Positions 24,301 to 33,101 of a stretch of 39,671 nucleotides of DNA are shown in pieces. Where the stretch lies: IMG/VR virus record IMGVR_UViG_3300022074_000122, positions 1 through 39,671 of that record, one strand, 5' to 3'. The stretch's first letter is position 1, and the number at the start of each line of letters is the position of its first letter. Source of the stretch: a virus. The translations under genes were made by a program, and so were the position numbers. The notes beneath the pieces are model-generated. The model ran no database searches. It worked only from the letters and a program-made list of their open reading frames with translations, and was not told the origin of the DNA.

Positions 24301-25307
24301 GGTTATCGGCTTCAGAAGAGACGAAAGTGCTCAATGAATCTGCGGTCAGATACTTTATGGACGAACGTATCTTGCAAAGAGGACCTAACCAAGTACAAAG
24401 AGATCTTTTAGGTGACACCACCCCTGAAATTATTCAAAAAGCCGAAGCTGAAGATCTTTTGCTTAGTAAAGATACTAAACAAGCTGCTGATTTTAATGAG
24501 GCTTTTGATACGGTCCAGGCAAAGCGGCAAACAAGAGACGGAACAGTTCAAGAATTTGCAAGACTAAAAGAACCAAATCCAGGAGAGTCTTACTCTCCCG
24601 ATCTTTTTGGGTACATAGCGGCTAGTGATGCCCCAGAAATTTTTAGTAGATACAACGAATATCTTGGTCTCTCTGCGGGTGTTAACGAAATTTTTCCAGG
24701 ATATGTGTACGGTTCAGCCCTTACGCAACAAAAACAAATTAAGGCTGCGGTGCTTGATGCAGTTAGGACCACAGACTCACAAGCAATTAGCTCTCCCGGA
24801 GCATTCAGAGTACAACTACCGGAGTTTAATCCAAACTTACCTGCCGATGAGGTTATTAATCCACAATACAAATACATGTCGGCTGGAGCGGGCTTTTTTA
24901 ATAATCCACGTTTAATGGTTAAGTCGTCAGCTGGAAAAGAGCAGCATTATCCACAGGTTTATCCAGACATGCATCGTAATCATGTTTCAGTTGTAAAAGA
25001 CCTAAACGCTGACTTACCCTGGGCGGAAAAAGGTGAAGTGCCAGAGGGTAAACCACGTTTTTACGCTGAGATATTACCAACCGGTAATATTCCAGACAGG
25101 GGCAAGAAGACACCAGACAAAAACGAAACAATTATGTTAAGGATTAGACCAGTGATTCGTTGGGATAAAGAGGCTGGCGACTACTTTAAAACAGAGCCGT
25201 TACCTTTTAGAGATGGTGGCTTGGTCAGCTTGCCCAAGATGGCTCCTGGTCTGGAGCCTTTGCTCAGAAAGTATCGTAGAGAAGGCACTCTCTCACACTT
25301 TATTTAA
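21384..25307 (+). CDS. Giant protein of unknown function (1307 aa), possibly virion-associated
   Basis: A very long protein in one unit with the helicase. The N-terminal 150 residues have helical Ala/Gln-rich sequence (KEIRD-like segments, ALRAQGQVEQAEGLEALSTV). The middle is mixed alpha/beta with no motif I can name. The last 40 residues read PLPFRDGGLVSLPKMAPGLE then LLRKYRREG. The FxxGG(L/V)V-type ending recurs in marine phage virion proteins and resembles the GG motifs in the 237-aa and 496-aa proteins here. That points to a virion or ejected protein, although it lies away from the structural operons. The ATG overlaps the preceding gene. Its 3' end overlaps the convergent gene by 15 bases. 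Function is not assigned. Confidence 0.6.
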   Translation: MAKQKRDPTGITGQGLGSSFSEFFRGQGDDDSYIEQLGRGLTKVPGKAQEFLSQDIGDIAEDVTDFGVAFGQEVAKQAKENPLKFVAETFTPYGYAVSAKETRDLLEQADALRAQGQVEQAEGLEALSTVALLDLIPGGRLFRKAGNRLEIADDIPDQNRNNFPIPDRGSSFKPTKEPFIPKGKIGIDQLESGIIDKQPKNLKEAARKAGIASIVTGKKGQKQIDPELFRENIRSFDTTGDLVVTSKPINRGTPEHPNIGGEDPEGTAKNGNAGVVSFFKRPPSGAAAEADNLGPRRSVIQNLIGPSLTQYINSVRGTTAEAHEYNANFDAPIVTEIPPAPIDELVETELERLKTSNFGLSEQYENVVGKLLNDELFKKELKNAIGTRRFKDFNKKIAAVSTASINPAVLIPSDVTDNFNRRIVESFDVTNPEGIGPSTASRGDPLGHINVTLFSRLGMSPDDMGRLMAYAEQEGLDTVSKSLTDQMNFVRAILESVERNQNLPLDQQDMAETLSVYNELRDASRDLIPEYTASDLIELVDKAKEKFKKQKLEVKDIALSLARYTNNFVFDKNLTSSLRRDTSSPVTPIQALLGSEELYTGPGQGFSFRRTGKKQLHNDYRPGVISSGSNQRLFYNENFDDEINAAVDDDGFDIKGRADTDKHSEEFLRPLDPYVEKHHGGFSRVTDNFVLTNTGGRFFTEDDVGKDLEFEQSLLPREFILNSSGDVDTSYMGDVGPQGSVLRARHSLEYQPDPRGQAKYGSQPEYDQAKVLLTADIPVRFPATTFKQKRENLEALQKIAENKDVLINNQNPTIKNMKNRLHVEIIPKAYRLVTFGKRGTKEKATNISTFQEANVPLNVGLDNGNIPQQLVTQRSDVENLGGELFDGPTDLYKELSGGNINSQYTRDIKTLSKGLAKFTKDLKKPVEELTETEVDNLHQQYFDDLELFNAFKRANKHVANTTLLTTQPSGSPRLSASEETKVLNESAVRYFMDERILQRGPNQVQRDLLGDTTPEIIQKAEAEDLLLSKDTKQAADFNEAFDTVQAKRQTRDGTVQEFARLKEPNPGESYSPDLFGYIAASDAPEIFSRYNEYLGLSAGVNEIFPGYVYGSALTQQKQIKAAVLDAVRTTDSQAISSPGAFRVQLPEFNPNLPADEVINPQYKYMSAGAGFFNNPRLMVKSSAGKEQHYPQVYPDMHRNHVSVVKDLNADLPWAEKGEVPEGKPRFYAEILPTGNIPDRGKKTPDKNETIMLRIRPVIRWDKEAGDYFKTEPLPFRDGGLVSLPKMAPGLEPLLRKYRREGTLSHFI

Positions 25308-25550
25308 ATCAAATGTGCTAGTGCCATTCGTATTGGCACCGTAGAATTGCGCAGCTTCAGCAATAAACGGTAGTTCTATCAAGCAGCGAGTGCGGTTCGC
25401 TGAGTCCATGCCCGCAAAGGCTTTATGACATGCAGCCAGGGCATCCCTTAATGCGTCGTGCCTAGTATCAGTGATGCCGATCTCAAACAACTTTTGAGAT
25501 AACTCGTTGCCAGCAAAAACATTTGTTAGCGGCTTTGCTCCATTCATCAT
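25293..25550 (-). CDS. Small protein, unknown function
   Basis: 85 aa, helical, with three Cys residues not arranged as a metal site (RHDALRDALAACHKAFAGMD, RTRCLIELPFIAEAAQF). Preceded by AAAGGA at good distance; a second ATG lies one codon in. It ends 15 bases inside the convergent 1307-aa gene. Bases 25388-25402 are identical to half of the hairpin elements found at 30-33 kb. Confidence 0.55.
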   Translation of the reverse strand: MMNGAKPLTNVFAGNELSQKLFEIGITDTRHDALRDALAACHKAFAGMDSANRTRCLIELPFIAEAAQFYGANTNGTSTFDLNKV

Positions 25551-25723
25551 TTATTTTCCTTTATTTTTGTGCGTTCGTGTTCCCTGGCACGCTGCCCAAC
25601 TAATTTTGCAAAGTTTGTTAGTTCGGTTTCGTTGGCTAAATACCCACGTCCACCAATGCGACACACACCTTCGATATGTTTGATGCCAGCTTGCAAGGCC
25701 AGTTCTTTGATTAGATTAGACAT
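25547..25723 (-). CDS. Small basic protein, unknown function
   Basis: 58 aa from ATG; an in-frame TTG twelve bases upstream is an alternative. It reads LIKELALQAGIKHIEGVCRI then GGRGYLANETELTNFAKLVG and a Lys/Glu-rich tail. It overlaps the following gene by four bases. The central VCRIGGRGY segment is glycine-rich, but I do not recognise a family. Confidence 0.5.
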   Translation of the reverse strand: MSNLIKELALQAGIKHIEGVCRIGGRGYLANETELTNFAKLVGQRAREHERTKIKENK

Positions 25724-25777
25724 GACCGATTCCAAAGATTTAGCCCTAACATTTACAGGACCAGGCTTTTGACTAAA

Positions 25778-25896
25778 CAGTAACTAGGAAACCTCCGAAG
25801 GATAGTTACTGCCAGCATCTCTGGCTTTCAACAGGAGGTCAGCCCTGTTAAGGGAGATACTTAGCAGCTTACTTAGTGAGTTAGGTAAGCTGCTAA
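25778..25896. ncRNA. Four-hairpin structured non-coding region (candidate RNA)
   Basis: No gene fits between 25724 and 25922. Four inverted repeats follow each other: CAGTAACTA/TAGTTACTG (25778-25786 with 25803-25811), GCCAG/CTGGC (25811-25815 with 25821-25825), AACAGG/CCTGTT (25830-25835 with 25844-25849) and the 12-bp TTAGCAGCTTAC/GTAAGCTGCTAA (25861-25872 with 25885-25896). The first loop holds ACCTCC (25791-25796), complementary to GGAGGT at 25834-25839 in the third hairpin, so a loop contact or pseudoknot is possible. If read from the minus strand it lies inside the early operon transcript. No known riboswitch or ribozyme core was recognised. The strand is not settled. Confidence 0.45.
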
Positions 25897-25922
25897 TAGG
25901 AGCGGTCCCAACCTTGCCCAAT

Positions 25923-26111
25923 TTAAGACATTTGTTTCTCTACGTCCCTTACCGGGGCATACTGTTCTGGAAACAAATCAAAGTGATATTTTTTAATAAC
26001 TTCTGCAGCCTGTCTAGTGATTGACCTGTTCTGCTTCTGTGCGCACTCCTTGAGCAATGCGTATTCGCCCAGGGGCACTGCAACGTTTCGATATCTGCCT
26101 TCACGCGCCAT
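25923..26111 (-). CDS. Ribbon-helix-helix (Arc-like) DNA-binding protein
   Basis: 62 aa. The order beta strand, helix, helix is visible: RYRNVAVPLGEYALLKECAQ then KQNRSITRQAAEVIKKYHFD. The strand RYRNVAVP would insert in the DNA major groove as in Arc/MetJ/CopG regulators, and the Ser-Ile-Thr-Arg turn and Ala-rich second helix fit. It is the only clear repressor-type protein in the small-gene region and so a candidate regulator of the phage's repeated operator-like sites. It starts one base after the stop of the 58-aa gene. Confidence 0.7.
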   Translation of the reverse strand: MAREGRYRNVAVPLGEYALLKECAQKQNRSITRQAAEVIKKYHFDLFPEQYAPVRDVEKQMS

Positions 26112-26112
26112 A

Positions 26113-26289
26113 TTACTCGTCTGCCTTATGAAAAGTTGTTGGTTCTGTAGGCATTATACCCTCAAACTCATCATAAATATACAAATATTGAACACCGTGC
26201 TTCTCACCAAACTCTTCTCTGGTTAAATTTTCACAATCTTCCTGCAGTTGTTCTTGCAGATTGGTGTACGCTTTTTTAACTTCGCCCAT
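26113..26289 (-). CDS. Small acidic protein, unknown function
   Basis: 58 aa, found by reading the minus strand. It begins MGEVKKAYTNLQEQLQEDCE, continues LTREEFGEKHGVQYLYIYDE and ends FHKADE. A GGAA-type ribosome site lies upstream. The start lies inside the end of the 41-aa membrane gene and the stop is one base before the ribbon-helix-helix gene, so the three form a coupled run. Function unknown. Confidence 0.6.
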   Translation of the reverse strand: MGEVKKAYTNLQEQLQEDCENLTREEFGEKHGVQYLYIYDEFEGIMPTEPTTFHKADE

Positions 26290-26401
26290 TTTTCTTTAGT
26301 TCCTTGTAGATAGAAAAAAATATTGCTGCGTTAGCAGCAATGATTACAAAACCAGTAATTGACATGATCAAGTAATACGTTTGCGACTCAAATATTGTCA
26401 T
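26276..26401 (-). CDS. Single-span membrane peptide (41 aa)
   Basis: A short gene starting MTIFESQTYYL, followed by a hydrophobic run of about 20 residues (IMSITGFVIIAANAAIFFSI) and a basic tail YKELKKNGRS. This is a classic one-helix layout with the positive end inside the cell. GGAG lies nine bases before the ATG, and both ends overlap neighbours by 14 bases. It could be a holin-like, superinfection or early membrane-acting peptide. A terminator-like hairpin (26322-26341) lies within it, so the alternative is that this is non-coding. Confidence 0.5.
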   Translation of the reverse strand: MTIFESQTYYLIMSITGFVIIAANAAIFFSIYKELKKNGRS

Positions 26402-26603: not shown

Positions 26604-26908
26604 GGCATAATGTACGCATGAGGCGGTGGTGGCTCATCTTGGGGAACACCTCCACACTCGTACTCTGGTGCATATTTGGATCCCTCAAACAATTCATCAA
26701 CTGTCCAATCACCAAAGTCTTGACCAAACTTGAATGTCTTATTTAACAACTCAACAAGTTGTCGTTTGTGTGTGATGTCGTACTCGGTGATCTTCATGTC
26801 GTCATGCGGACCTTTGACCTTGATCAGATATTTTCTCAAAGAAGGTTTGCTGCTAAAAAACAACACTTCATGCGTGTCGTGATTTAGCACTCTAAAAACT
26901 GTATTCAT
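26600..26908 (-). CDS. Small protein, unknown function
   Basis: 102 aa with a beta-rich front (MNTVFRVLNHDTHEVLFFSS), a central helix (RQLVELLNKTFKFGQDFGDW) and a Pro-rich tail (QDEPPPPHAYIMP). AGGAG precedes the ATG. One of a run of coupled small genes; no family recognised. Confidence 0.6.
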   Translation of the reverse strand: MNTVFRVLNHDTHEVLFFSSKPSLRKYLIKVKGPHDDMKITEYDITHKRQLVELLNKTFKFGQDFGDWTVDELFEGSKYAPEYECGGVPQDEPPPPHAYIMP

Positions 26909-27100
26909 TTAATGTGTCTCCTGCGCAACGTATTGCGGTTCAGTTGATTTAAGAGGCTGTGCGATGGTTGCTGTGTAGGTGTCTTCTTTCTCAAGAAGTT
27001 CACTGTAGTTTTTTTCCGCCTCTGCATACGTGTCGCACGTTAAATAATGATCTGTAAAATCCTCAATATCTATCTTCTTTGTCCATACGACTAAAAACAT
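26909..27100 (-). CDS. Small protein, unknown function
   Basis: 63 aa, beginning MFLVVWTKKIDIEDFTDHYL and continuing TCDTYAEAEKNYSELLEKED. The start overlaps the upstream stop (TGATG) and the stop is directly beside the next gene. The alternation of short strand and helix suggests a small alpha/beta domain. No family recognised. Confidence 0.55.
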   Translation of the reverse strand: MFLVVWTKKIDIEDFTDHYLTCDTYAEAEKNYSELLEKEDTYTATIAQPLKSTEPQYVAQETH

Positions 27101-29175: not shown

Positions 29176-29200
29176 TGTAAATATCTCCTAGTTTTTACGT

Positions 29201-29217
29201 CTGTCCATTGTAAACAA
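29201..29217 (-). promoter_or_regulatory. Degenerate copy of the 17-bp operator-like repeat
   Basis: CTGTCCATTGTAAACAA matches the site at 32321-32337 at 14 of 17 positions. It lies 26 bases upstream of the first early minus-strand gene. A TAGTCTAA box is not clearly present behind it; AAGTCAAG at 29228-29235 is a weak match. Confidence 0.4.
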
Positions 29218-29292
29218 CTTTTAAACAAAGTCAAGTTTACATATAACACTAATTTTTTCAAAAAAAGTTTTTTGTTTTTTCCTGACAATTTG

Positions 29293-29321
29293 ACGTTACA
29301 AACGTTACAACGTTACAAACG
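29293..29321 (+). repeat. Triple CGTTACAA iteron
   Basis: CGTTACAA occurs at 29294-29301, 29303-29310 and 29311-29318, spaced nine and eight bases apart, followed by ACG. The reverse-complement word occurs at 29365-29378 (GTTACGTTTGTTAC), and a related GTTTGTTACGTT lies at 19716-19727. Confidence 0.6.
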
Positions 29322-29467
29322 CTCTGTAGGTCAATAAATACAGTCATCTTTTTGGAACACCCTGGTTACGTTTGTTACACTTTTTATGAGGCATACTGAC
29401 TCGTTTTTGATTTTGCCTGTTAATTAAGTTAATTTTCGTCACAGAACTGTTATAGGGATTTGTGCCA

Positions 29468-32905: not shown

Positions 32906-32926
32906 GGTATCTCTCCCCAGTTACCG

Positions 32927-32942
32927 GTGGCGGTATTGCCAC
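32927..32942 (-). promoter_or_regulatory. Leader hairpin of accessory unit 1
   Basis: GTGGC (32927-32931) pairs with GCCAC (32938-32942) across six bases, upstream of the ribosome site of the 141-aa gene. It matches the RTGGC/GCCAY shape in unit 2. Confidence 0.5.
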
Positions 32943-32962
32943 ATCCCAGATTGTCTCATACC

Positions 32963-33006
32963 TTGTGCACTATGAACAACCCCTATGGTCTTATACTTTA
33001 GTCTAA
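32963..33006 (-). promoter_or_regulatory. Promoter/operator module of accessory unit 1 (long spacer)
   Basis: Minus strand: TTAGACTA (33006-32999), then 19 bases instead of 8, then TTGTTCATAGTGCACAA (32979-32963). The extra 11 bases equal about one DNA turn, so the two parts keep the same face. The spacer contains AGTATAAG, a possible -10. Confidence 0.55.
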
Positions 33007-33021
33007 TGCGGATCGCCGAGT

Positions 33022-33042
33022 GCGGTTCGCGCAGCGAACCGC
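33022..33042. repeat. Hairpin element upstream of accessory unit 1
   Basis: GCGGTTCG-CGCAG-CGAACCGC. The stem equals those at 31108 and 31912, but the loop is CGCAG, the reverse complement of CTGCG, as if the loop were inverted. Confidence 0.8.
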
Positions 33043-33101
33043 TATACCCCTACGGGGGTTACTTGGGGTAAACCTATACAACAACGGTAACAACAGAAGG
33101 G

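Follow-up and report, generated by a model that had tools for sequence, protein, structure and literature searches.

The question raised by this locus is what occupies the longest gap in a block of small, tightly packed phage genes, and whether the RNA of that gap acts on its neighbours. The window analysed here is the whole of IMG/VR virus record IMGVR_UViG_3300022074_000122 (39,671 nt), in which, as deduced from the ORF list and hand tiling, a minus-strand block of small genes extends from ~33,370 down to 25,293, where it runs up against a convergent 1307-aa gene. The term 'early' for this operon is taken over from the initial annotation and presumably applies. On hand tiling, the non-coding gap (25724-25922, minus strand, 199 nt) is the longest of six operon gaps exceeding 20 nt and lies ahead of the last two genes. 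It separates an upstream gene of 62 aa (25923-26111, minus strand), which appears ribbon-helix-helix-like by eye only, from a downstream gene of 58 aa (25547-25723, minus strand) that starts with ATG at 25723 behind a weak Shine-Dalgarno sequence (TTTGGA); no protein family match was obtained for either product. The last gene of the operon, encoding 85 aa (25293-25550, minus strand), overlaps the end of the convergent gene. Thus the gap and the packed operon described earlier are indeed present, but the strand that had been drawn is not that of the operon: with the genes on the minus strand, the RNA of interest is the complement of the drawing. Hand tiling also gave two further operon gaps of 168 nt each (29176-29343 and 32906-33073), and the minus strand of the stretch at 32925 folds with -71.3 kcal/mol (z -3.4, 15 shuffles).

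Four successive hairpins had been described at 25778-25896, and all four were found, here assigned to the minus strand. H1 (25778-25786/25803-25811) is a 9-bp stem, CAGTAACTA/TAGTTACTG, and has one base in common with H2 (25811-25815/25821-25825; GCCAG/CTGGC, 5 bp), which in the predicted folds is rivalled by two longer-range pairings. H3 (25830-25835/25844-25849; AACAGG/CCTGTT) has only 6 bp, while the arms of H4 (25861-25872/25885-25896), set 12 nt apart, form the perfect 12-bp stem that had been reported (15 nt at 93 %). Fold z-scores are -3.2 on the plus and -3.1 on the minus strand for a 151-nt stretch, and -2.97 and -2.78, respectively, for a 200-nt stretch. When each strand from 19,725 to about 33,400 is divided into 69 non-overlapping stretches of 200 nt, with 15 noisy shuffles each, the element ranks fourth by z on the plus and sixth on the minus strand. 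Since comparable or lower values occur in several stretches elsewhere in the window (again with 15 shuffles each), fold strength by itself is not decisive; the fold energy is good, not singular within the window. ARAGORN detected no tRNA or tmRNA, and inside the gap neither a sigma-70-like promoter nor, on either strand, an intrinsic terminator (a GC-rich stem with a T-run behind it) was found.

The sole relative found to carry the element is IMG/VR contig 3300030102_004478 (locus L003), and the two phages are about 90 % alike. A search with the last operon gene gave one locus, 93 % identical, and among the best 80 of 312 helicase relatives one is 99 % identical, being the same contig again, and the next 75 %. 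Searches with the downstream and upstream genes gave 22 and 19 loci, respectively, and the element is missing from the other 21 loci of the former. A covariance model (R1) was run over 118 of 131 loci and the window, leaving out L001, L002, L083-L086, L113, L115, L116, L126-L128 and L131, most of these being self copies or duplicated contigs; it scored the window and L003 only, the next best hit having an E-value of 1.2. When nhmmer was run over the loci after setting aside six (L001, L002, L003, L084, L086 and L113) that are copies of the element or of the window, the best hit was a Streptomyces piece (E 0.027). A near-DNA search of phages with 22.7 kb from the window gave zero matches, a distant-DNA search of the gap against phages and plasmids gave only chance pieces of 20-25 nt, and no repeat of the gap sequence was found elsewhere in the window. 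Exact-pattern scans of viral contigs returned the same contig alone besides L083 and L085, which proved to be unrelated terminator-like hairpins; the single match of a 21-mer in a genome scan, within an ORF of a Streptomyces contig, was taken as chance. In these searches the element appears lineage-restricted. More broadly, terminase identity is 62.5 % with phage 023Pt_psg01 and 60.4 % with Pelagibacter phage HTVC027P, DSL-LC04 lying nearby, and the helicase has the same phage neighbours at 45-50 %.

At the same place, the 75 % relatives hold a different sequence, which on reading consists of a terminator-like hairpin and small frames. Under a strict rule, terminators were found within about 150 nt past the stop of the upstream gene in 7 of 19 loci, and none there in the element-bearing contig. 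In the homologous gap of L102, L127, L130, L126 and L131, a terminator-like hairpin seems by eye to lie within a small frame resembling a membrane protein, or where that frame begins. Within the window, a terminator-like hairpin with a T-run occurs at 26322-26341 on the minus strand, inside a 41-aa frame (26276-26401) with a product that by eye seems to span the membrane; both frame and hairpin are absent in L003, which, near 26900-26949, has an excess of about 150 bases over the window (152 gap columns in the alignment).

The earlier statement that no known RNA class is recognisable is borne out by Rfam 15, which yields nothing at the gathering threshold. Even at E-values up to 10 for the window and 5 for L003 only a chance-level CRISPR repeat appears, the best match being CRISPR-DR61 (16.4 bits where 38 are required, E 3.8). 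The passages of PMC12753301 consulted say nothing on non-coding RNA. The region is also non-coding, as had been proposed, no reading frame being open in both copies. A 45-aa ORF with a TTG start (25784-25921, minus strand) is the sole ORF of at least 40 aa spanning most of the gap on that strand; it was rejected as a gene, as the TTG start is lost in L003, an in-frame stop occurs there and a 2-nt indel lies in the H1 apex. A 32-aa frame of L003 gave no meaningful match against phages.

Related phages had been named as the place to look for the stems, and in one of them, L003, the stems survive: 31 of 32 pairs are kept when read on the minus strand and 29 of 32 on the plus strand. The stem of H2 is unchanged; H1 shows one C-G to U-G change, its apex differing in sequence and length (a 2-nt indel); H3 loses its outermost pair at an alignment gap, the sole pair lost of the 32. 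In H4 both arms are kept, again with one C-G to U-G change, and the loop is replaced by one about 26 nt longer. Thus each of the two base substitutions in the stems leaves a U-G pair in place of C-G on the minus strand and disrupts pairing on the plus strand, while a third change, in the extension of H1, turns G-U into G-C on the minus strand. The predicted fold of L003 has -70.1 kcal/mol on the minus strand (z -1.68; 8 of 150 shuffles equally good) and -49.4 kcal/mol on the plus strand (z -0.13; 66 of 150). These comparisons would favour an RNA of the minus strand over one of the plus strand, although with so few changes the preference is suggestive only. As regards covariation, there are two copies only, with changes on one side of pairs and none on both.

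Constraint on the sequence is most apparent next to the downstream gene. The start-proximal 125 nt (25724-25848, minus strand) carry 5 substitutions relative to L003 (4 %), compared with 59 of 352 fourfold sites (17 %) in 12 neighbouring genes (Fisher p 8.5e-5), the limits of this block having been picked after viewing the alignment; against the two adjacent genes (8 of 43 fourfold sites) the p value is 0.005. In the adjacent downstream gene 6 of 20 fourfold sites differ, and in the 65 nt ahead of its start codon there is 1 difference. Over all aligned columns of the gap, however, 26 of 197 differ, which is indistinguishable from fourfold sites (p 0.16). Moreover, 535 of 3326 overlapping gap-free 125-nt windows nearby, most of them coding, have 5 or fewer differences, so that the low divergence could be mosaicism.

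A loop-loop contact had been suggested between ACCTCC (25791-25796) and GGAGGT (25834-25839). In L003, ACCTCC is kept and GGAGGT reads GGGCGG. The segment contains 13 complementary 6-mer word pairs against a shuffle mean of 1.5, and by our own count 12 of the 13 are explained by the stems (7 in H4, 4 in H1 and 1 in H3). Given this and the loss of GGAGGT in the relative, the contact is at chance level and unconserved. The reading of the same word as a Shine-Dalgarno sequence fares no better, as GGAGG becomes GGCGG in L003 and inspection by eye shows no start codon at a usable spacing behind it. The idea that the RNA touches ribosomes thus gains no support from the ACCTCC/GGAGGT match.

The MFE folds of both copies contain a predicted three-way junction (25732-25824, minus strand), in which CCAGAGAU (25817-25824) would pair with AUCUUUGG (25732-25739) and enclose the extended H1 together with a third hairpin at 25741-25763; it is not distinguishable from chance alternatives. 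In the window, an upstream GAGAUGC pairing and the downstream pairing of CCAGAGAU come out nearly equal (-41.2 and -41.6, respectively), the corresponding folds in L003 giving -35.5 and -40.1. By automatic alignment 2 of 7 pairs of the GAGAUGC pairing are broken in L003, which by eye looks like misalignment, the motif being two bases away. The alternative predicted folds involve the stretch directly ahead of the start codon, and the ribosome site of the 58-aa gene has an accessibility of 0.44 unpaired, which is not unusual for this operon, of which 23 starts were examined. As shuffled sequences are bistable equally often (51 of 100), a switch is not claimed. It is improbable that the locus represents a novel kind of cis-regulatory phage RNA with a narrow distribution, in which a ligand, a protein or the advancing ribosome would choose between the junction and the GAGAUGC pairing and so switch the last early genes.

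Our tentative preference, to which we give somewhat less than an even chance, is that the gap is a lineage-restricted, non-coding structured 5' leader that exerts a cis effect on the final two early genes. The gap would then be part of the minus-strand early mRNA, with transcription running through it, and the hairpins would set the last two genes apart from the translated operon upstream. They may shape processing or stability of the mRNA, and they may lower or tune translation of the 58-aa gene with its weak ribosome-binding site. Functionally, the gap is probably an ordinary regulatory spacer with a putative function, and is to be regarded as ordinary unless further copies covary. An unconstrained spacer, being what is left of a small gene that was replaced or has decayed, with hairpins owed to composition and similarity owed to recent ancestry or recombination, is less likely, yet a serious contender. 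Related phages do hold other sequence there (tiny genes and terminator-like hairpins on reading), the fold energy is unexceptional, comparable low divergence is common nearby and bistability equals that of shuffles; against this, the stem arms persist even where the loop of H4 has been replaced, the wobble changes, by their direction, speak for one RNA strand, and the downstream gene has its 6 differences in 20 fourfold sites next to 65 nt with a single one.

That same concentration of constraint beside the start codon is why a leader fits better than a stand-alone small RNA, cut from the early transcript and acting in trans, which we consider improbable. Such an RNA would agree with a compact, hairpin-rich, non-coding gap conserved along most of its length, but the gap has no promoter-like site and none of its hairpins is followed by a T-run. 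There is similarly little chance that the element works as DNA, in the form of an operator, a promoter specific to the phage or palindromes bound by protein. The inverted-repeat nature of H1 and H4 and the single difference in 65 nt ahead of the start codon would suit such a site; however, both stem substitutions spoil the DNA palindromes yet keep RNA pairing, no sigma-70-like promoter lies inside the gap, and the window offers no second copy of its sequence.

A structured leader at this position can be set beside several known systems. In the T7 early operon, RNase III processing hairpins lie between cistrons, and the likeness consists in stem-loops between small early phage genes; here, however, the stem has 12 bp and no homology is shown. 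The put RNA of HK022 is a cis-acting antitermination RNA whose hairpins follow one another within an early phage transcript. The element resembles it by description, its cis action being proposed, but is located towards the operon's end and not at its start. Structured 5' leaders also precede small phage and bacterial genes, as in the glutamine riboswitch types, which share with the predicted folds a three-way junction directly ahead of the start codon, whereas no Rfam family beyond the chance-level CRISPR repeat was matched here. As things stand, the main lesson is that the loop-loop idea fails on comparison with the one known relative. If functional, the element would provide one more structured intercistronic leader for a group of aquatic phages that has received little study and whose terminase and helicase link it to HTVC027P and DSL-LC04.
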